Positions 7,817-26,798 of a stretch of DNA of 37,557 nt are shown one piece after another. The notes under the pieces were generated by a model. It saw only the letters and a list, made by a program, of their open reading frames with translations, was not told the DNA's origin and did not search any database. Source of the stretch: Gemmatimonadota bacterium (lineage in GTDB: Bacteria; Gemmatimonadota; Gemmatimonadetes; Longimicrobiales; Gaopeijiaceae); NCBI GenBank assembly GCA_003248075.1, contig QJYK01000023.1:1-37557 (forward strand). Reading direction: 5' to 3'. A program made the position numbers and the translations under genes. The number at the start of each line of letters is the position of its first letter. Position 1 is the first letter of the stretch.

Positions 7817-9067
7817 ATGGATCGACGATCGTTCATGGCGACGGGAATCGGCGGTGCTCTGGGGATGGGTGCCTGGGCCGCCGCGCCTCGAGGCTCGCGG
7901 CCCGGCAACGCGCAAACCGCGCGCGCCCTGTTCCCGAGGGCCGAGCAGGAGGTCTTCCTGAACGGGGCGGGCGGCACACCCCTTTCCACCTTCGCCGAGT
8001 CCGGGATCGCCCGTTACCTGGACTTCATCCGACTCGGCCCTGCCGAGGGGCGGGGTGCCTACCGCGAGCGGGTGTGGAACGACGTCCGCGGCCTATTCGC
8101 GTCCCTGATCGGTGCGAAGGAGGCGGAGGTCGGTTTGGTCGGGTGCACCAAGGCGGGGGAGCAGCTGGTGATCGACCACCTGACCGCGCTGCGCAGCGGT
8201 GGAAACATCGTCACGAACGACCTCCACTTCTCCGGATCGCTCCACAACCTCGAAGGGTTGCGTCGCGCGGGAATGGACGTCCGCGTCGTGCGCGCGGATG
8301 CGGCGCTCCACGTCCCGATCGAGCGAATGGCCGACGCCATCGACGACCGGACCGCGTTGGTGACAGTGTCCCTCGTTTCCAACGTGACCGGGCGCATCGA
8401 GCCGGTTTCGGACCTCGCCGGGGTGGCCCACCGGCACGGCGCGCTCGTGTTCGCCGACATCATCCAGGCGGCCGGCGCCATCCCGATCGACGTGCGCGCG
8501 CTGGACGTGGATGTCGCCGCCTGCTCGGCGTACAAGTGGCTCTTCGGCATCCACGGCGCGGGCTTCCTGTACGTGCGGGAGGAGCTACAGGGCACCGTGC
8601 TGCCCGACCACCTCTTTCCTGGCCACGTCCGCAGGAACTACGTGCCCTGGATCGAGGGCGCCGCCCTGGAGGGCGTGGGTGACTATACCTACGAGGCGCC
8701 CTCCAGCGCCGCCCGCTATCAACCTGGGCACGTCAGCTACCTCGGTTACGCAGCCGCGTACGAGGGGCTCCGCTTTCTGCTCGACGTCGGCGTCGAGCAC
8801 ATCCAGCGGCACTCCACCGCTCTGGTGACCCGTCTCCTGGACCAGATCGACGTGGACCGTTGGCGCGTGCTCACGCCCGAGCCCGACCGGGTGCCCATCC
8901 TGTCCTTGCGCCCCCCGGCCATGGAGGGTCTCGTGGACCGCCTGGCGGCGGCTGGCGTGGTGGTGAGCGTGGGCGGTGACATGGAGCGACTCATGAGGGT
9001 CTCGCCGGCGATCTACAACGACGACACCGACATCGATCGGCTCGCCGAGGTGATCCGGAGCGCATAG
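7817..9067 (+). CDS. Tat-exported class V aminotransferase-fold PLP enzyme
   Basis: I start this at ATG 7817, after GGAAGAGGAGAGG. The longer open frame upstream lies over the MarR gene. The 416-residue protein begins with a twin-arginine signal (MDRRSFMATG, then a hydrophobic Gly/Ala stretch to about residue 33). The fold type I core follows. K240 in SAYKWLFG is the Schiff-base Lys, D214 and Q217 in ADIIQ pair with the PLP ring, and SLVSNVTGRIEP lies in the middle. The family includes cysteine desulfurases, Sec lyases, kynureninase and isopenicillin-N epimerase-like enzymes. Sequence alone does not choose between them, and no desulfurase active-site Cys loop is visible. Export of a PLP enzyme by Tat, already folded with cofactor, is plausible. 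It follows the MarR gene by 38 nt. Confidence 0.85.
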   Translation: MDRRSFMATGIGGALGMGAWAAAPRGSRPGNAQTARALFPRAEQEVFLNGAGGTPLSTFAESGIARYLDFIRLGPAEGRGAYRERVWNDVRGLFASLIGAKEAEVGLVGCTKAGEQLVIDHLTALRSGGNIVTNDLHFSGSLHNLEGLRRAGMDVRVVRADAALHVPIERMADAIDDRTALVTVSLVSNVTGRIEPVSDLAGVAHRHGALVFADIIQAAGAIPIDVRALDVDVAACSAYKWLFGIHGAGFLYVREELQGTVLPDHLFPGHVRRNYVPWIEGAALEGVGDYTYEAPSSAARYQPGHVSYLGYAAAYEGLRFLLDVGVEHIQRHSTALVTRLLDQIDVDRWRVLTPEPDRVPILSLRPPAMEGLVDRLAAAGVVVSVGGDMERLMRVSPAIYNDDTDIDRLAEVIRSA

Positions 9068-17420: not shown

Positions 17421-19043
17421 TCAGTAGCGTGATGCCCGGATCCAGTGGTCCGCCCGGGCCCAGGCATCCTCGAACTCGGCGTGCACGGCCTCGGCCTCGG
17501 TGTCCTTTCCCTGATCGCGGAGCGCCCGCTCGAGCCCGAACAGCGACCAACCGTTGTGCGGGTGGTCGTCCAGCGACAGCCGGTAGACCGTCTCGGCCTC
17601 CGAGGGTCGGTGCGCCTCGAGCAGGGCGGCGCCGAGCCAGTGGCGCGCCGTGAAGTTGAGGGGCTCGGGCTCGTCGTAGCGGAGCCCGTCCTCCAGGTCC
17701 ACGGCCTCTTCCAGGACCCGCACGGCCCCGTCGAGGTCCCCGTCTCCGCGTAGAGTCTCGCCCTCGAGGATGTCGGCCACGACCCCCAGGAGCTCCCTGG
17801 CGGGATGACCACGGAACTGTTCGTCGGGGTGCTCGTCGATGGCGCGGCGCACCTCGCCCAGCAGCCTGCGCGCTTCAACGGCGTTGCCGGAGCGCAGCTG
17901 CGCATAACCCTGAGCGAAGTCCCAGAAGCCCCGGAAGATGGGCCCGTCCGGCGCGTCGTCCATCGCCAGGATCTCGTCGAAGCGACCGAAGCGGAGCAGG
18001 GCGAGCGCATGGTAGAATTGCCCCCCGTCCATCATCTTGCCGTAGTCCTTCCCGGCCTGGATGGCCACAGCGCCCTGGCCGTCCATCGACGCGGCGAAGA
18101 GCAGCATGTGCAGGTTGTGGGACGGGTAGATCGCGAAGCCTTCGCCGACCTCCGCTTTCAGGTCCGAATGCCAGGCCTGGATGTTGGCGTGCACCGCGTC
18201 GCCCCAGCGTCCCACACGGTTGTAGGTGTGTGAGGGCATGTGGTTGATGTGGCTCGCCCCGGGAATCGAGTTGCCCAGGAGGTCGGCACACGCTTCCGCC
18301 TTCTCCGGCCGCACCGTGGGCTCGGTGGCATGGACGTACAGATGGCAGGCGCCGGGGTGGGAGATGTCCCGAGCCAGGACCTCCTCCAGGACCTGGTGCA
18401 CCTTCTGCACCGCCGGGTCGTGGATGTCCTTACGGCCGCGTCGCTCCTGGAGGAGCATTAGGGACTCGCCGTAGAGGGTCCCTACGTCCAGGTCCTCCGG
18501 ATAGCGCTCGTACACGTTGGCGATGGCCTCCGACCAAGCCTCGTCCAACTCCCGGCGGCGATCGGGGTCGTGGGTCGGCTCGTAGCGCACGGTCATCGCC
18601 TCGATCAACGCGCGCTCGACCGGTGTGGCGTGGTCGCCCGACAGCGCTTTCGCCTGCTCGATGGCGTGAAAGGCGCGGGGGGCGTCGTCCGGACCCATGG
18701 GGCCGTTCAGATACGGGCCCCAGGCCCACGCCTCACCGAACCAGCACATCGCGCACGCGGGATCTGCCCGTTCGGCCTCGCGGAACGAGCGGGCGGCATC
18801 GAGCGGCGCGAAGGCGTACAGCAGCTGGATCCCCTGATCGAAGAAGTCCTGCGCCTCGGTCGATGAGGTCGTGATCGGCCTGCTGAACGGACCCAGCCCT
18901 GCGTGCGCCAACGGCATGGGCTCGGAGAAGCTGGGTGGATACTTGGGCGCCTGGGCTCGGGCGGTGTCGGGGGCCGGCAACAGGATCGATGCGGCGAGAA
19001 GCGTGGCGATGGGGAGGGAAGGGCGGCCGTCGATACATCGCAT
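17421..19043 (-). CDS. Exported TPR protein with CxxC and His-rich motifs, unknown function
   Basis: I start at ATG 19043, followed by a signal peptide (SLPIATLLAASILLPAPDTARA, cleavage near residue 30). Upstream in-frame codons lack signal features. The 540-residue product begins with TPR-like repeats. C97 and C100 occur in DPACAMCWFGEAWAWGP. Later come GACHLYVHATEP and SHINHMPSHTYNRVGRWGDAV, which concentrate His residues in a short stretch. The same motifs recur in a widespread but uncharacterised family of periplasmic TPR proteins. CxxC plus clustered His suggests metal binding, possibly copper or haem, but no CxxCH is present. It heads a leftward run with the DinB-like gene and perhaps the TonB receptor. 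The divergent neighbour is the second Tat-exported PLP enzyme. Confidence 0.85.
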   Translation of the reverse strand: MRCIDGRPSLPIATLLAASILLPAPDTARAQAPKYPPSFSEPMPLAHAGLGPFSRPITTSSTEAQDFFDQGIQLLYAFAPLDAARSFREAERADPACAMCWFGEAWAWGPYLNGPMGPDDAPRAFHAIEQAKALSGDHATPVERALIEAMTVRYEPTHDPDRRRELDEAWSEAIANVYERYPEDLDVGTLYGESLMLLQERRGRKDIHDPAVQKVHQVLEEVLARDISHPGACHLYVHATEPTVRPEKAEACADLLGNSIPGASHINHMPSHTYNRVGRWGDAVHANIQAWHSDLKAEVGEGFAIYPSHNLHMLLFAASMDGQGAVAIQAGKDYGKMMDGGQFYHALALLRFGRFDEILAMDDAPDGPIFRGFWDFAQGYAQLRSGNAVEARRLLGEVRRAIDEHPDEQFRGHPARELLGVVADILEGETLRGDGDLDGAVRVLEEAVDLEDGLRYDEPEPLNFTARHWLGAALLEAHRPSEAETVYRLSLDDHPHNGWSLFGLERALRDQGKDTEAEAVHAEFEDAWARADHWIRASRY

Positions 19044-19115
19044 GGAGAGGCTCTCGGATCGGGTTCGCAAAGTGCCCAATGTGGGGGTGTCGGGTGGCGC
19101 AGGGCCAGGCGTCTT

Positions 19116-19136
19116 CGCGGGGCGCGACGCCCCGCG
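19116..19136. repeat. Inverted repeat in the divergent intergenic region
   Basis: A 9-bp perfect stem (19116-19124 with 19128-19136; core GCGGGGCG/CGCCCCGC) with a 3-nt CGA loop lies in the 193-nt space between the leftward TPR gene and the rightward PLP gene. It may be an operator or just a GC-rich hairpin. I see no convincing -35/-10 pair nearby. Confidence 0.35.
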
Positions 19137-19236
19137 CTTCCCCGACTGGCGGTCACCGGCGACCCGGTCTCATCTTGGGCCGGCACGTCGAGCGCGGTAC
19201 GGCAGGCCAGGAGCGTTCCCGGATCGAGGAGGGGTG

Positions 19237-20520
19237 ATGCCCGCGAACCCAAGCACGCGCCGCTCGTTCCTCAGGTCCCTGGGCGTGTCGGGCGTCCTGG
19301 GACCCGTGGCCGCGAGCCTCCTTCGTGTCGACCAGGCGCTCGCCGACGAGCTGAATGGCCTCGCGGCGCGCCGATGGGTCCCGGAGGGTCTGTCCGACCG
19401 TTACATGATCGATCCCGGGGTCACGTACCTGAACCACGCGAGCATCGGAACCATGCCGCGGGCCGTGCACGACGCCCGCGTCGAGTACTCCGCAATCTGT
19501 GAGTCGAACCCCCACCTGTATGTGTGGGGTGGCGCGTGGGACGGGATGGTCGAGGAGGTCCGCGCCCGCGCTGCCCGCTTCCTCGGGGCCTCGCTCGAGG
19601 AGGTCGCGATCACGCACAATACCACCGAGGGCTTCAACACGCTGGCGTACGGACTTCCCCTCGGGCCGGGCGACGAGGTCCTGTTCAGCTCGCTCAACCA
19701 CGGCGGGGCGAGCATCCCGTTCGAGCACGCCGCGAAGGCACGCGGCTACACGGTGCGACGCTTCGACTTCCCGATCGACGACGTGCCGCGGTTGGACGTG
19801 GCCGACGTGGTCGAGCTGCACCGTCGCGAGATCCGCCCCGCGACCCGCGTCCTGGTCTTTCCGCACGTCGACAACATCGTCGGTCTCCGGCACCCGATGG
19901 CCGAGCTCGCCGCGATGGCCCGGGCGCAAGGGGTCGACGTGGTGGCGGTGGACGGGGCGCAGGCGCTGGGGATGATCCCCGTCGATGCGGCGGCGAGCGG
20001 TGTGGACGCCTACTCGGCGAGCCCCCACAAGTGGCTCCAGTCGCCCAAGGGGCTCGGGCTGCTGTACGTACGCGCGACGCTGCGCGAGCGGCTCAGCCCG
20101 ATGTGGGTGCGCTACGGCGTTTCCCGGTGGGGCGGTACGTCGCGCATGTACGAGGACTACGGCACACGCAACTGGCCCGAGGTGCTGTCGCTGGGCGACG
20201 CGATGGACTTTCAGGACGCGCTCGGCGCCGCCGACAAGGAAGCGCGCTATCGGCGCCTGTTCGCTTCCATGCGCGAGCGTACGAGGGGGGCGGCCCTGCG
20301 TTGGAACTCTCCGGAACGCTGGGAGATGGGCTCCGTGCTCGTGTCGGTGGGCTTCGCCTCTCCTGCAAACGCGCTGTCGGATCGGCTCTACCAGGAGCGC
20401 GGGATCGTTCTGCGGGCGTTCCAGGGGGGAGGCCTGAACGCCTTCCGGGTCTCGCCGAACGTGATGAACACCGAAGCGGAGCTCGACGAGCTGTTCGGTG
20501 AGCTGGAGCGGGCCGGGTGA
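19237..20520 (+). CDS. Tat-exported class V aminotransferase-fold enzyme (isopenicillin-N epimerase-like)
   Basis: The start is ATG 19237 after GAGGAGGGG; the frame is open upstream but the Tat signal fixes this start. Residues 8-34 are a twin-arginine signal (TRRSFLRSLGVSGVLGPVAA). The 427-residue enzyme has NHASIGTMPR (substrate end), THNTTEGFNTLAYGL, VAVDGAQALGMIPVD (Asp and Gln that bind PLP) and SASPHKWLQSPKGLGLLYV (Schiff-base Lys). These are typical of the CefD-like part of the class V family. Possible reactions include beta-elimination, C-S lyase or epimerase chemistry on an amino acid; none can be chosen. Its last codons overlap the GTG of the following VOC gene (GTGA), so both are probably made and exported together. 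Confidence 0.88.
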   Translation: MPANPSTRRSFLRSLGVSGVLGPVAASLLRVDQALADELNGLAARRWVPEGLSDRYMIDPGVTYLNHASIGTMPRAVHDARVEYSAICESNPHLYVWGGAWDGMVEEVRARAARFLGASLEEVAITHNTTEGFNTLAYGLPLGPGDEVLFSSLNHGGASIPFEHAAKARGYTVRRFDFPIDDVPRLDVADVVELHRREIRPATRVLVFPHVDNIVGLRHPMAELAAMARAQGVDVVAVDGAQALGMIPVDAAASGVDAYSASPHKWLQSPKGLGLLYVRATLRERLSPMWVRYGVSRWGGTSRMYEDYGTRNWPEVLSLGDAMDFQDALGAADKEARYRRLFASMRERTRGAALRWNSPERWEMGSVLVSVGFASPANALSDRLYQERGIVLRAFQGGGLNAFRVSPNVMNTEAELDELFGELERAG

Positions 20521-21602
20521 GCGCACGGCCGGGGAGCGCGGCGTGCCGGCGGCGCCGCGCCCTCATGCTGGCCTTGGCGGCCCTCGGCTGCCTCCGCTAT
20601 GACGGAGAGCCTCCCGACACGACCGACCCGGGCCCGGCGCCGGGCGTGCCCACGCTGCACCACGCACATCTCAACTCGATCGACCCGGACGCGGCGATCG
20701 AGTTCTATCTGAGGCTCTGGCCCTCCGGGACCCGTGAGGAGATCGCCGGACATCCTGCGTTCGTGGCGGAGATGGCGCTTCTGTTCAACCGCGTGGACAC
20801 GCCGCCGGCCGGCGGCTGGAGCCCGGCGCTCGAGCGGTCGGACCCGCAGAGCGCGTTCTGGCACATCGGCGCATTCGTGAATACCACGGGCCTCCTGGAG
20901 CGCCTCGCGTCCGAGGGCGTCGATGTGCTCCCGCTGTGGACGGGCCCCGACGACCCGCGCGGGGTCCCGCGCTCGGGCCTCACGCCGTACGCCGGTATCG
21001 TCGGCGCGAGCGCCCTCGCAGACGCCCAGGCGGCGCCGCCGCGCGAGGGCGGCTTCGGGTACCTGCACGGACCGGACGGGGCGATCGTCGAGCTCACGGG
21101 ATCGGCCCGCACGAACCCGTCGTTCAGCCATGTCCATCTCTTCCACGAGCAGCCGCGCTGCGCAGCGAACTGGTACGTCGAGCACCTCGGCATGTCGATC
21201 CCGCCGCGACGGGACCCCGGGACGCGAGACACGATCCCGGTCGAGCGCTGGCCCGACTGCGCGTCCGAGCCTGTCGGGGAGGCGGGATGGCCGTCCCTGG
21301 AGCACCGCGGAACGCTCCGGTCGCCCAACGGGTCCGTGCGCTTCGCCAACGGCACGATCGGCTTCTATCCCCGTCAGTGCCGTGACGGCCGGTGCGGAGC
21401 CGGCGACGGTCCGCTCGTCCCCTCGGCGGGGCAGGTCCTCGACCATGTGGGCTTCCGCGTCGACGCGATCGGCCCGTGGATCGCGCGGCTGCGGGCCCAG
21501 GGCGTAACGCTCCTGGACGGTCCCTACGAGTTCGGCGAGGGGCGCGGCGTCCTGGTCGAGGGGCCGGACGGCCTGGGGATCGAGCTCGTCGAGCTGCCTT
21601 AG
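20517..21602 (+). CDS. Secreted two-domain VOC (glyoxalase/dioxygenase-fold) protein
   Basis: The GTG start overlaps the upstream TGA by 4 nt (GTGA). The 361-residue product has a basic N terminus and a short hydrophobic stretch (ALMLALAALGC), so it is probably a lipoprotein or secreted. Two VOC modules follow, HHAHLNSIDPDAAIEFYLRL to GYLHGPDGAIVELTG and FSHVHLFHEQP to GVLVEGPDGLGIELVELP. Each has the paired betaalphabetabetabeta pattern with His/Glu positions suited to a metal site (H49 or H50 and E106-like in module one; HVHLF and IELVEL in module two). Members include glyoxalase I, extradiol dioxygenases and resistance proteins, and the activity here is unknown. Coupling to an exported PLP enzyme is unusual and suggests a shared extracytoplasmic pathway. 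Confidence 0.8.
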   Translation: MSARPGSAACRRRRALMLALAALGCLRYDGEPPDTTDPGPAPGVPTLHHAHLNSIDPDAAIEFYLRLWPSGTREEIAGHPAFVAEMALLFNRVDTPPAGGWSPALERSDPQSAFWHIGAFVNTTGLLERLASEGVDVLPLWTGPDDPRGVPRSGLTPYAGIVGASALADAQAAPPREGGFGYLHGPDGAIVELTGSARTNPSFSHVHLFHEQPRCAANWYVEHLGMSIPPRRDPGTRDTIPVERWPDCASEPVGEAGWPSLEHRGTLRSPNGSVRFANGTIGFYPRQCRDGRCGAGDGPLVPSAGQVLDHVGFRVDAIGPWIARLRAQGVTLLDGPYEFGEGRGVLVEGPDGLGIELVELP

Positions 21603-21670
21603 ACCGTCCGACAGCCGTCGACCGACCGGACGCCGCGGATCGGGCGGTGCGTGCGGCACTCCGGCCTACC

Positions 21671-21690
21671 GCGGAACCTCTCCGTTCCGC
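21671..21690. promoter_or_regulatory. Inverted repeat and probable promoter ahead of the PadR gene
   Basis: GCGGAAC (21671-21677) and GTTCCGC (21684-21690) form a perfect 7-bp dyad with a 6-nt centre. Downstream lie GTAC-C-GTAC (21695-21703) and TATATA (21705-21710), a plausible -10 with 33 nt to the GTG start. The dyad could be the PadR operator or a terminator stem for the VOC gene that ends 68 nt before it. Confidence 0.45.
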
Positions 21691-21743
21691 CGGCGTACCG
21701 TACCTATATAGAAGACTCTGTACCCTTCGGGATTAGGACGGTC

Positions 21744-22057
21744 GTGGCGAAGCCCGTGCGCATGACGTACCTGACCGCGGTCGTGCTGGAAGCGGTGGCC
21801 TCCGGACACCGATACGGCTTCGACATCATGGACGCCACGGGGATTCCGGACGGGACGGTGTACCCTTGCCTGCGTCGTCTCGAGAAGGCGGCGCTACTCG
21901 CCGCGCGCTGGGAGGACGCCGGGGAGGCCGCCGCGAAGAACCGTCCGGCCCGCAAGTACTACCGCCTGACCGCGGAGGGCACCGAGGCCCTACGGGGGGC
22001 TCGTGCGCGCTTCCCGGGGGTGGCGCGCACGTTCGCGAGTGCCGCGAAGGCCGACGC

Positions 22058-24842: not shown

Positions 24843-26798
24843 ATGTCCAACCCCACCCGTGCCGTCGGCGCCATCACCGCCATACTCACGGTCGCGTGCG
24901 GCGAGCCTGGCGGCACCGTCCGCACCGCGGGGTCCGATACCGGCGACTGGCCCCACTACGCCCACGACCTCGCGGCCACGAAGTACGCTCCTCTCGACCA
25001 GATCGACCCCTCCAACGTCTCGCAGCTGCGTGTCGCGTGGAGCTGGGAATCCGCGGACTACGACCTCCCGGAACGGTTCCCGGGCGTCGAGGTGAACCCC
25101 AACTATCAGGCCACGCCCATCAAGATCGGCGCGCGGCTGTACGTGCCCACGAACATGGGCCAGGCGGTCGCCCTGGATCCGGAGACCGGACGCGAGCTGT
25201 GGCGTTACGACCCCTATGCCTCGGGTCTGCGGGGTCGTCCCGGGGGACGCGCCAGCCGAGGCGTCGCGTACTGGTCGGAGGGAGACGGGGAGCGCGTGTT
25301 CCTGCTTTCCGGCCCGTACCTGGTGGCGCTCGACGCCGCCACCGGGATGCCCGTGCCGGAGTTCGGGGGCGGTGGTGCCGTCGACCTCGCGGACGACCCC
25401 GACCAGCGGGTCGAGACGTTCGAGTGGACCTCGGCGCCCATGGTCGTGCGCGACGTGGTGATCGTGGGGGCCACGGCGATGACGCCGACTCGCAACTGGA
25501 AGACCGCGCCACCGGGCTACGTGCGCGCCTACGACGTGCGCACGGGTGCGCTGCGCTGGCGCTTCAACCCCATCCCCGAGCCCGGTGACCCGGCCATCGA
25601 GACCTGGGCGGACTCGTCCTGGGCATACTCGGGAAACGGGAACGTCTGGACGCTCATGAGCGCGGACGAGGAGCTGGGACACGTCTATCTGCCGCTCAAG
25701 ACGACGACGAACGACTGGTACGGTGGACATCGCCTGGGGGACAACCTGTACGGGGAGAGCGTCGCCGCGGTGGACGCGGAGACCGGAGCGCTGCTCTGGC
25801 ACTTCCAGATGGTCCACCACGGGCTTTGGGACTACGATCCGCCGGCCGCGCCCAACCTCCTGGACGTGGTCGTCGACGGGCGCCCGGTCAAGATGCTCGC
25901 CCAGGTGACGAAGCAGGCCTTCGTGTTCGCCTTCGACCGGGAGACCGGCCGGCCGGTCTGGCCGATCGAGGAGCGGCCCGTCCCGGCGTCCGACGTGCCG
26001 GGTGAGGTGGCGGCGGCGACCCAACCGTTCCCCACGCGCCCCGCTCCCTTCGACCGTCAGGGCATCACGACCGACGACCTGATCGACTTCACGCCGGAGC
26101 TCCGTGCCGAGGCGGAGCGCATTGTTTCCGGCTTCGTGTACGGTCCGATGTTCACACCGCCGTCCGTGAGGGACGACCGTCCGGGCGGCACGCAGGGGAC
26201 GATCCTCATGCCGGGATGGGTCGGTGGGGCGAACTGGGGCGGGGCCGCGGTGGATCCGGAGACGGGCGTGCTCTACGTCCCGTCGGTGACCTCGCCCAAC
26301 GTGACCGCGCTGGTCGCGCCGAACCCGGACAGCTCCGACTTCAACTTCGTGCGGGGCCTCCCCAGGGAGGTGCCGATGCCCCGCGGGCTCCCGATCCTCA
26401 AACCGCCCTACGGTCGCATCACCGCCATCGACATGCATACGGGTGAGCACCTGTGGATGCGCCCCAACGGGCCCGGGCCGCGCGACCATCCGGACCTGCG
26501 TGGGCTCGACCTGCCGTGGCTCGGGCAGCGCGGGCGCGCCGCGCCCCTGCTCACGAAGACCCTCCTGTTCGTCGGCGAGGGCTCCGAGGCAGCGCTGTCC
26601 ATCCTGTCGGTCGCAGGAGGAAAGGCGTTCCGGGCGTGGGACAAGGCGACCGGGGACCTGCTCTGGGAGGTGTCCCTGGAGGCCGGCACGTCGGGGGCGC
26701 CGATGACCTACCTGGCCGGGGGCAGGCAGTATGTCGTGGTGGCCATCGGCGACCGGGCCACCCCCGGTCGACTCGTCGCCTTCGCGCTCCCGGACTGA
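24843..26798 (+). CDS. PQQ-dependent dehydrogenase (quinoprotein, lipoprotein)
   Basis: I start at ATG 24843, where a short lipoprotein signal (ITAILTVACG, Cys about 19) begins. The frame runs further upstream without a signal. The 651-residue protein is an eight-bladed quinoprotein propeller with repeated W-type blades such as VALDPETGRELWRYDP, VAAVDAETGALLWHFQ and GGAAVDPETGVLYVPS. DWPHYAHDLAATKYAPLDQI at the start and NPNYQATPI are typical. The vicinal Cys pair of methanol-type enzymes is absent, which fits the membrane glucose dehydrogenase-like group. It would oxidise a sugar or alcohol in the periplasm and pass electrons to a quinone or cytochrome; no partner cytochrome gene is adjacent. 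It is convergent with the small membrane protein gene (8 nt). Confidence 0.9.
   Translation: MSNPTRAVGAITAILTVACGEPGGTVRTAGSDTGDWPHYAHDLAATKYAPLDQIDPSNVSQLRVAWSWESADYDLPERFPGVEVNPNYQATPIKIGARLYVPTNMGQAVALDPETGRELWRYDPYASGLRGRPGGRASRGVAYWSEGDGERVFLLSGPYLVALDAATGMPVPEFGGGGAVDLADDPDQRVETFEWTSAPMVVRDVVIVGATAMTPTRNWKTAPPGYVRAYDVRTGALRWRFNPIPEPGDPAIETWADSSWAYSGNGNVWTLMSADEELGHVYLPLKTTTNDWYGGHRLGDNLYGESVAAVDAETGALLWHFQMVHHGLWDYDPPAAPNLLDVVVDGRPVKMLAQVTKQAFVFAFDRETGRPVWPIEERPVPASDVPGEVAAATQPFPTRPAPFDRQGITTDDLIDFTPELRAEAERIVSGFVYGPMFTPPSVRDDRPGGTQGTILMPGWVGGANWGGAAVDPETGVLYVPSVTSPNVTALVAPNPDSSDFNFVRGLPREVPMPRGLPILKPPYGRITAIDMHTGEHLWMRPNGPGPRDHPDLRGLDLPWLGQRGRAAPLLTKTLLFVGEGSEAALSILSVAGGKAFRAWDKATGDLLWEVSLEAGTSGAPMTYLAGGRQYVVVAIGDRATPGRLVAFALPD

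Follow-up and report, generated by a model that had tools for sequence, protein, structure and literature searches.

Overlapping genes for a PvdN-like PLP enzyme and a two-module VOC protein, both probably exported, in a Gemmatimonadota genome

VOC enzymes have been described chiefly from the cytoplasm; their metal ligands sit on first or last strands, and VOC-fold antibiotic-binding proteins bind small molecules without catalysis. The best structural match of the VOC protein considered here, maize monomeric glyoxalase I, is reported to have one functional and one cryptic site (PMC5412262). Among solved class V PLP enzymes the closest is PvdN (PDB 5i90; NF051467), a periplasmic pyoverdine-tailoring enzyme that reportedly decarboxylates its substrate, yielding a quinonoid with which oxygen subsequently reacts (PMC7497351). 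We analysed a 37,557-nucleotide stretch of DNA, referred to as the window, from a Gemmatimonadota bacterium (Gaopeijiaceae; contig QJYK01000023.1), in which a gene for a PvdN-like enzyme overlaps one for a two-module VOC protein.

Layout of the locus and the PvdN-like enzyme

The original prediction had joined a class V gene to a VOC gene through a GTGA overlap, and both genes were found at the coordinates given beforehand (19237-20520 and 20517-21602), with their frames confirmed. The features of the locus are as follows.

19227 to 19232, plus strand: AGGAGG, likely ribosome-binding site of the class V gene (read from sequence)
19237 to 20520, plus strand: class V PLP enzyme, PvdN-like, 427 residues (PF00266, 151.8 bits; best solved match PvdN)
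19255 to 19344, plus strand: twin-arginine signal region, TRRSFLRSLG plus hydrophobic stretch (motif in 20 of 21 homologues)
20517 to 20520, plus strand: GTGA overlap of VOC start and class V stop (sequence)
20517 to 21602, plus strand: two-module VOC protein, predicted to be exported, 361 residues (PF00903, 38.3 bits; model pLDDT 91.5)
20517 to 20591, plus strand: putative export signal up to lipobox-like C25, ALGC (16 of 17 family members have a hydrophobic stretch there)
20646 to 21101, plus strand: VOC module 1, with H49, H116 and E192 (model strands; conserved in 17, 14 and 17 of 17)
21120 to 21599, plus strand: VOC module 2, with H205, H207, H310 and E356 (model strands; conserved in 17, 17, 17 and 15 of 17)

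ATG 19237, four bases 3' of AGGAGG, opens the class V gene, which ends with TGA at 20518-20520; the VOC frame has its GTG at 20517, one base ahead of that stop, which gives the four-base overlap GTGA. Because the genes overlap, co-translation here is very likely, and the overlap probably ties the translation of one to that of the other; it is the sole sign at the locus of coupling between them. Upstream, on the opposite strand, lie genes for a TPR protein, a DinB-family protein and a TonB-dependent receptor, and downstream, on the same strand, those for a PadR regulator, a MacB/FtsX permease and a PQQ-dependent dehydrogenase (24843-26798, plus strand; PF01011, 625.8 bits; start lipoprotein-like by eye). 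Scanning 18900-21900 revealed no promoter-like or terminator-like site, a result that is weakly informative in GC-rich DNA, and a search of a plasmid collection gave no match.

The class V protein matches PF00266 with 151.8 bits against a cut-off of 21.5, placing it in the aminotransferase class V fold, and PvdN is its best solved match by profile (E 1.8e-55). PvdN was also the first Foldseek match (TM 0.73, 26% identity) of the class V model, whose mean pLDDT of 72.0 makes it weaker than the VOC model. K265, D239 and H264 are identical in all 7 aligned class V sequences (an alignment of 7 of the 21, among them a sequence from the same genus that is 36% identical), and K265 would, by its position, be the catalytic PLP lysine. 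At the N-terminus, MPANPSTRRSFLRSLG, a twin-arginine motif is carried within STRRSFLRSLG; the pattern R[RK]xF[LM] is present in 20 of 21 class V homologues, the window's included, and the remaining one reads DRRSFVKSLA.

The likeness to PvdN thus extends to the fold and to the N-terminal twin-arginine signal, but the window enzyme scores 115.5 bits on NF051467, below the cut-off of 650, and the annotated genes around it are not pyoverdine genes. By analogy with PvdN, it may act in the periplasm on an amino group carried by a peptide or small molecule. With SufS-type cysteine desulfurases it shares the class V fold and a TIGR01979 match of 119 bits, but the cut-off there is 475.1 and the window enzyme is predicted to be exported. 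Its sole cysteine is C88, and it therefore lacks the persulphide cysteine that SufS has near the C-terminus; a cysteine desulfurase was ruled out by the score and the missing C-terminal cysteine.

Other members of both groups in this genome carry comparable N-termini. A second class V PLP enzyme is encoded in the window itself (7817-9067, plus strand; PF00266, 128.2 bits), with the twin-arginine start MDRRSFMATG. It counts among the twin-arginine frames found when signals were read in the 17 strongest of 23 PF00266 matches: five fit the motif by pattern, and a sixth (L132) has a variant by eye. Three of 13 distinct PF00903 frames (15 matches) look exported, namely the window VOC protein, one with a twin-arginine motif (L118, G000:C245:8070-8372) and one judged by eye (L123, G000:C256:2031-2387), the latter two being further VOC-fold proteins with export-like N-termini. 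Class V and VOC members with predicted export are not rare in this genome.

Conservation of the pair and the usual site of the class V gene

Both family profiles were run against all six-frame open reading frames of 50 or more residues in the flanks of 16 related VOC loci and 20 related class V loci, the latter comprising 19 close ones and a more distant one from a same-genus genome. At E 1 or better, the 16 VOC loci yielded no class V match and the 20 class V loci no VOC match. Of these, 15 and 19, respectively, can be read on the side that counts, whereas in L080 (VOC) and L109 (class V) the contig stops short of the would-be partner's position. A conserved class V-VOC operon was rejected on this absence of adjacency. 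The original prediction had named a lack of conservation of the pair as what would refute it, and the pair is not conserved in relatives; its proposal of a coupled pair processing one metabolite did not hold up, with a partner in 0 of 16 and 0 of 20 loci. Because it is not conserved, the gene pair as such matters little.

Among the 395 genomes of the phylum, close class V homologues (1e-90) occur in 19 and VOC homologues (1e-20) in 14, this one included. Both genes are found in four genomes, all of one family, and are adjacent only in this one, as G019, G202 and G258 carry each gene on a separate contig. Leaving this genome aside, co-occurrence amounts to three genomes against 0.59 expected (P 0.017, relatedness uncorrected), and since all four genomes belong to one family, common descent may explain the excess. 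In the only other same-genus genome examined there is no VOC match and no close class V gene, only a 38% homologue.

These data bear on the idea of a true two-step extracytoplasmic pathway, newly assembled in this lineage, in which the PLP enzyme would yield a carbonyl or phenolic product for conversion by the VOC protein. The GTGA overlap, the export signals on both proteins and the mild co-occurrence across the phylum speak for such a pathway, but there is no adjacency elsewhere; of the 14 genomes with the VOC gene, 10 lack a close class V gene, and of the 19 with the class V gene, 15 lack the VOC gene. We consider such a pathway quite unlikely. The reading that we prefer, with a probability of roughly 70%, is that of two exported enzymes of separate history that are neighbours in this lineage; ordinary neighbours in a local arrangement, rather than a joint pathway, are most likely.

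The class V gene has a recurrent setting of its own. In the class V set of 20, a rho homologue adjoins it in at least 10 loci, and genes resembling hutI and hutF lie nearby in at least seven and at least six of the loci in the same tally (one member of each checked by Pfam). Gene calling was rough, missing the central gene in 3 of 20 class V loci and 5 of 16 VOC loci, and neighbour tallies are consequently lower bounds. This genome encodes a rho homologue (74% identity) on contig C241 and a hutI homologue (55%) on contig C339, and the last 142 bases of C339 are the first 142 of C241, a join that rests on this overlap and could be an assembly branch point. To one side of the joined stretch hutF and hutI match the relatives' genes, as do, to the other, SRPBCC-like, GDSL-like, ABC and FtsX genes (these four names assigned by eye), and across both stretches no class V match is better than E 0.75. 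The usual rho-hut site thus appears to be present without the class V gene, on evidence that is strong if not final, and the class V gene sits at another place in this genome than in half of the related loci, here preceding the VOC gene. Two rho-like genes were seen in this genome: that on C241 (L148, G000:C241:701-1846, 74%) and one that is 51% identical to the query (L150, G000:C226:163-1245), which may be a paralogue or contamination, the genome's estimated contamination being 4.65%.

Export signals and distribution of the VOC family

The N-terminus of the VOC protein, MSARPGSAACRRRRALMLALAALGC, reads as basic residues followed by a short hydrophobic segment and a cysteine compatible with a lipobox. 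In the 60-residue segment ahead of the conserved HH..LNS motif, a hydrophobic stretch was found, independently of the start codon, in 16 of 17 family members, one of which (L080) is cut by a contig end. Using a loose pattern, a lipobox-like cysteine follows it in nine of the 17, the window's among them, and in the other seven signal-bearing members the end resembles an ordinary signal-peptidase site by eye. The seventeenth member, L019, follows a metallo-beta-lactamase domain within a frame of 777 residues, of which it makes up the C-terminal part; this acidobacterial fusion frame (L019:4666-6999, plus strand) also contains an internal start with a signal-like stretch by eye.

Fifteen of 17 members have four cysteines in the mature part; the remaining pair of members, in which the loop holding C288 and C293 is missing, have two. 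Such even numbers fit disulphides outside the cytoplasm. We weighed whether the VOC protein could instead be cytoplasmic and its N-terminus no signal. The GTG start and the shortness of the hydrophobic stretch leave room for this, and the next in-frame start, an ATG at codon 17, would drop the basic residues; against it, 16 of 17 family members show a hydrophobic stretch in the corresponding position, longer in the homologues, and the cysteine counts are as given above. A cytoplasmic location is accordingly judged highly improbable.

Under the preferred reading of two exported enzymes, export of both proteins is supported because the signals recur in homologues: both are probably exported, and the VOC signal is probably of the lipoprotein type (ALGC). 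The Tat signal on the class V enzyme and the separate signal on the VOC protein, as originally predicted, are thereby upheld by their recurrence in 20 of 21 and 16 of 17 sequences, whilst the term 'secreted' is borne out as to the export-type signals and is better worded as exported and probably membrane-anchored. The PLP enzyme would fold with its cofactor in the cytoplasm and then pass to the periplasm by the Tat route; the VOC protein would leave via Sec and probably be anchored as a lipoprotein.

The VOC family spans 43-59% identity and occurs in Gemmatimonadetes, Acidobacteria and Acidimicrobiia. Outside Gemmatimonadota this distribution comes from a single search of named contigs, where six homologues were found (Gemmatimonadetes; Acidobacteria, one of them Vicinamibacteria; Acidimicrobiia). 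The sets analysed exclude the VOC gene of G207, which is split over two contigs, weak VOC matches with E above 1e-5, and L001-L003, L015 and L017, which duplicate the window, L070, L071, L073 and L076 as second or shorter copies.

The neighbours of the VOC gene vary, since in L016 its stop overlaps by four bases the ATG of an amidohydrolase gene (L016:2198-3436, plus strand; signal-like start) and in L019 it is fused to the metallo-beta-lactamase-fold domain. Across the 16 VOC loci no common partner was found beyond a c-type cytochrome (at least 5 of 16) and a PQQ-dehydrogenase homologue (at least 2 of 16, plus the window), the latter seen near the VOC gene in L018 and L019; genes for both are common in these phyla. 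At the level of titles and abstract openings, the literature gave no description of an exported two-module VOC family, nor did that on twin-arginine class V aminotransferases at the same level.

Candidate metal sites and comparison with known VOC proteins

The VOC protein matches PF00903 with 38.3 bits (cut-off 20.6), and E values of 0.01 or better were obtained for all 17 family members. The structure, predicted with confidence (mean pLDDT 91.5, pTM 0.84), comprises four beta-alpha-beta-type units, in keeping with the tandem beta-alpha-beta-beta-beta fold of the VOC superfamily and bearing out the two VOC modules of the original prediction. H49, E192, H205, H207 and H310 are invariant across the 17 members; E356 is kept in 15 (Lys or Ala in two) and H116 in 14 (Thr in three). 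In the model, H49, H116, H205, H310, E192 and E356 are each placed on the first or last strand of a unit, and largely conserved His and Glu at VOC metal positions make metal binding plausible. With the units arranged as in the best structural matches, unit 1 would pair with unit 4 (H49, H310, E356) and unit 2 with unit 3 (H116, E192, H205). The clefts' His/His/Glu sites would then hold a divalent metal, and could catalyse an isomerase, lyase or ring-cleavage step.

The substitutions at H116 and E356 mean that neither candidate site is intact in all members, and they raise the alternative of an exported, non-catalytic VOC protein that binds a small molecule and shields or sequesters it. This seems unlikely: the other five residues are invariant, and in every member checked, one or both candidate sets are complete if the units pair as proposed above.

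The preferred reading, of separate exported enzymes that have become neighbours, leaves the exported two-module VOC family as the only part with some novelty, a little-studied and modest variant. Such a VOC family, bearing export signals in three lineages, paired cysteines and conserved residues where metal ligands sit, would extend the range of places in which the fold is at work, and it offers a clear assay target. A more ambitious version is very doubtful, namely that these proteins form a hitherto undescribed family of two-site VOC metalloenzymes outside the cytoplasm, stabilised by disulphides and either periplasmic or lipid-anchored, acting there on small molecules in Gemmatimonadota, Acidobacteriota and Acidimicrobiia and here recruited to the product of the PvdN-like enzyme.

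With phmmer, the VOC protein had no match among solved structures up to E 1, and its likenesses emerge from the model. VIA-align ranked maize monomeric glyoxalase I first (PDB 6bnx, 5d7z; Z 19.7, rmsd 3.3 A over 246 residues), which shares the two-module VOC fold but is 15% identical, and the window protein differs in its predicted export signal; membership of glyoxalase I was rejected at 17 bits against 120 on TIGR00068. GLOD4 follows (PDB 3zi1; Z 18.1, rmsd 3.0 A over 225 residues), a human protein with 12% identity. 2,6-Dichloro-p-hydroquinone 1,2-dioxygenase (PDB 4huz; Z 18.0, rmsd 3.1 A over 232 residues), of a type that cleaves rings with Fe(II), is alike in fold only, with 10% identity and, again, the predicted export signal setting the window protein apart. 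Then come 1zsw (Z 17.9) and 3oaj (16.9), after which scores fall to 12.7. Foldseek aligned the model with maize glyoxalase I, GLOD4, 1zsw, 3oaj and 4huz at TM 0.46-0.51 (rmsd 5.0-7.8 A), as against TM about 0.22-0.28 (rmsd mostly 18-21 A) for catechol-type extradiol dioxygenases. This gap in whole-chain TM and rmsd suggests that the modules of the VOC protein are arranged more like those of glyoxalase I, GLOD4, 1zsw, 3oaj and 4huz than those of the catechol-type extradiol dioxygenases.
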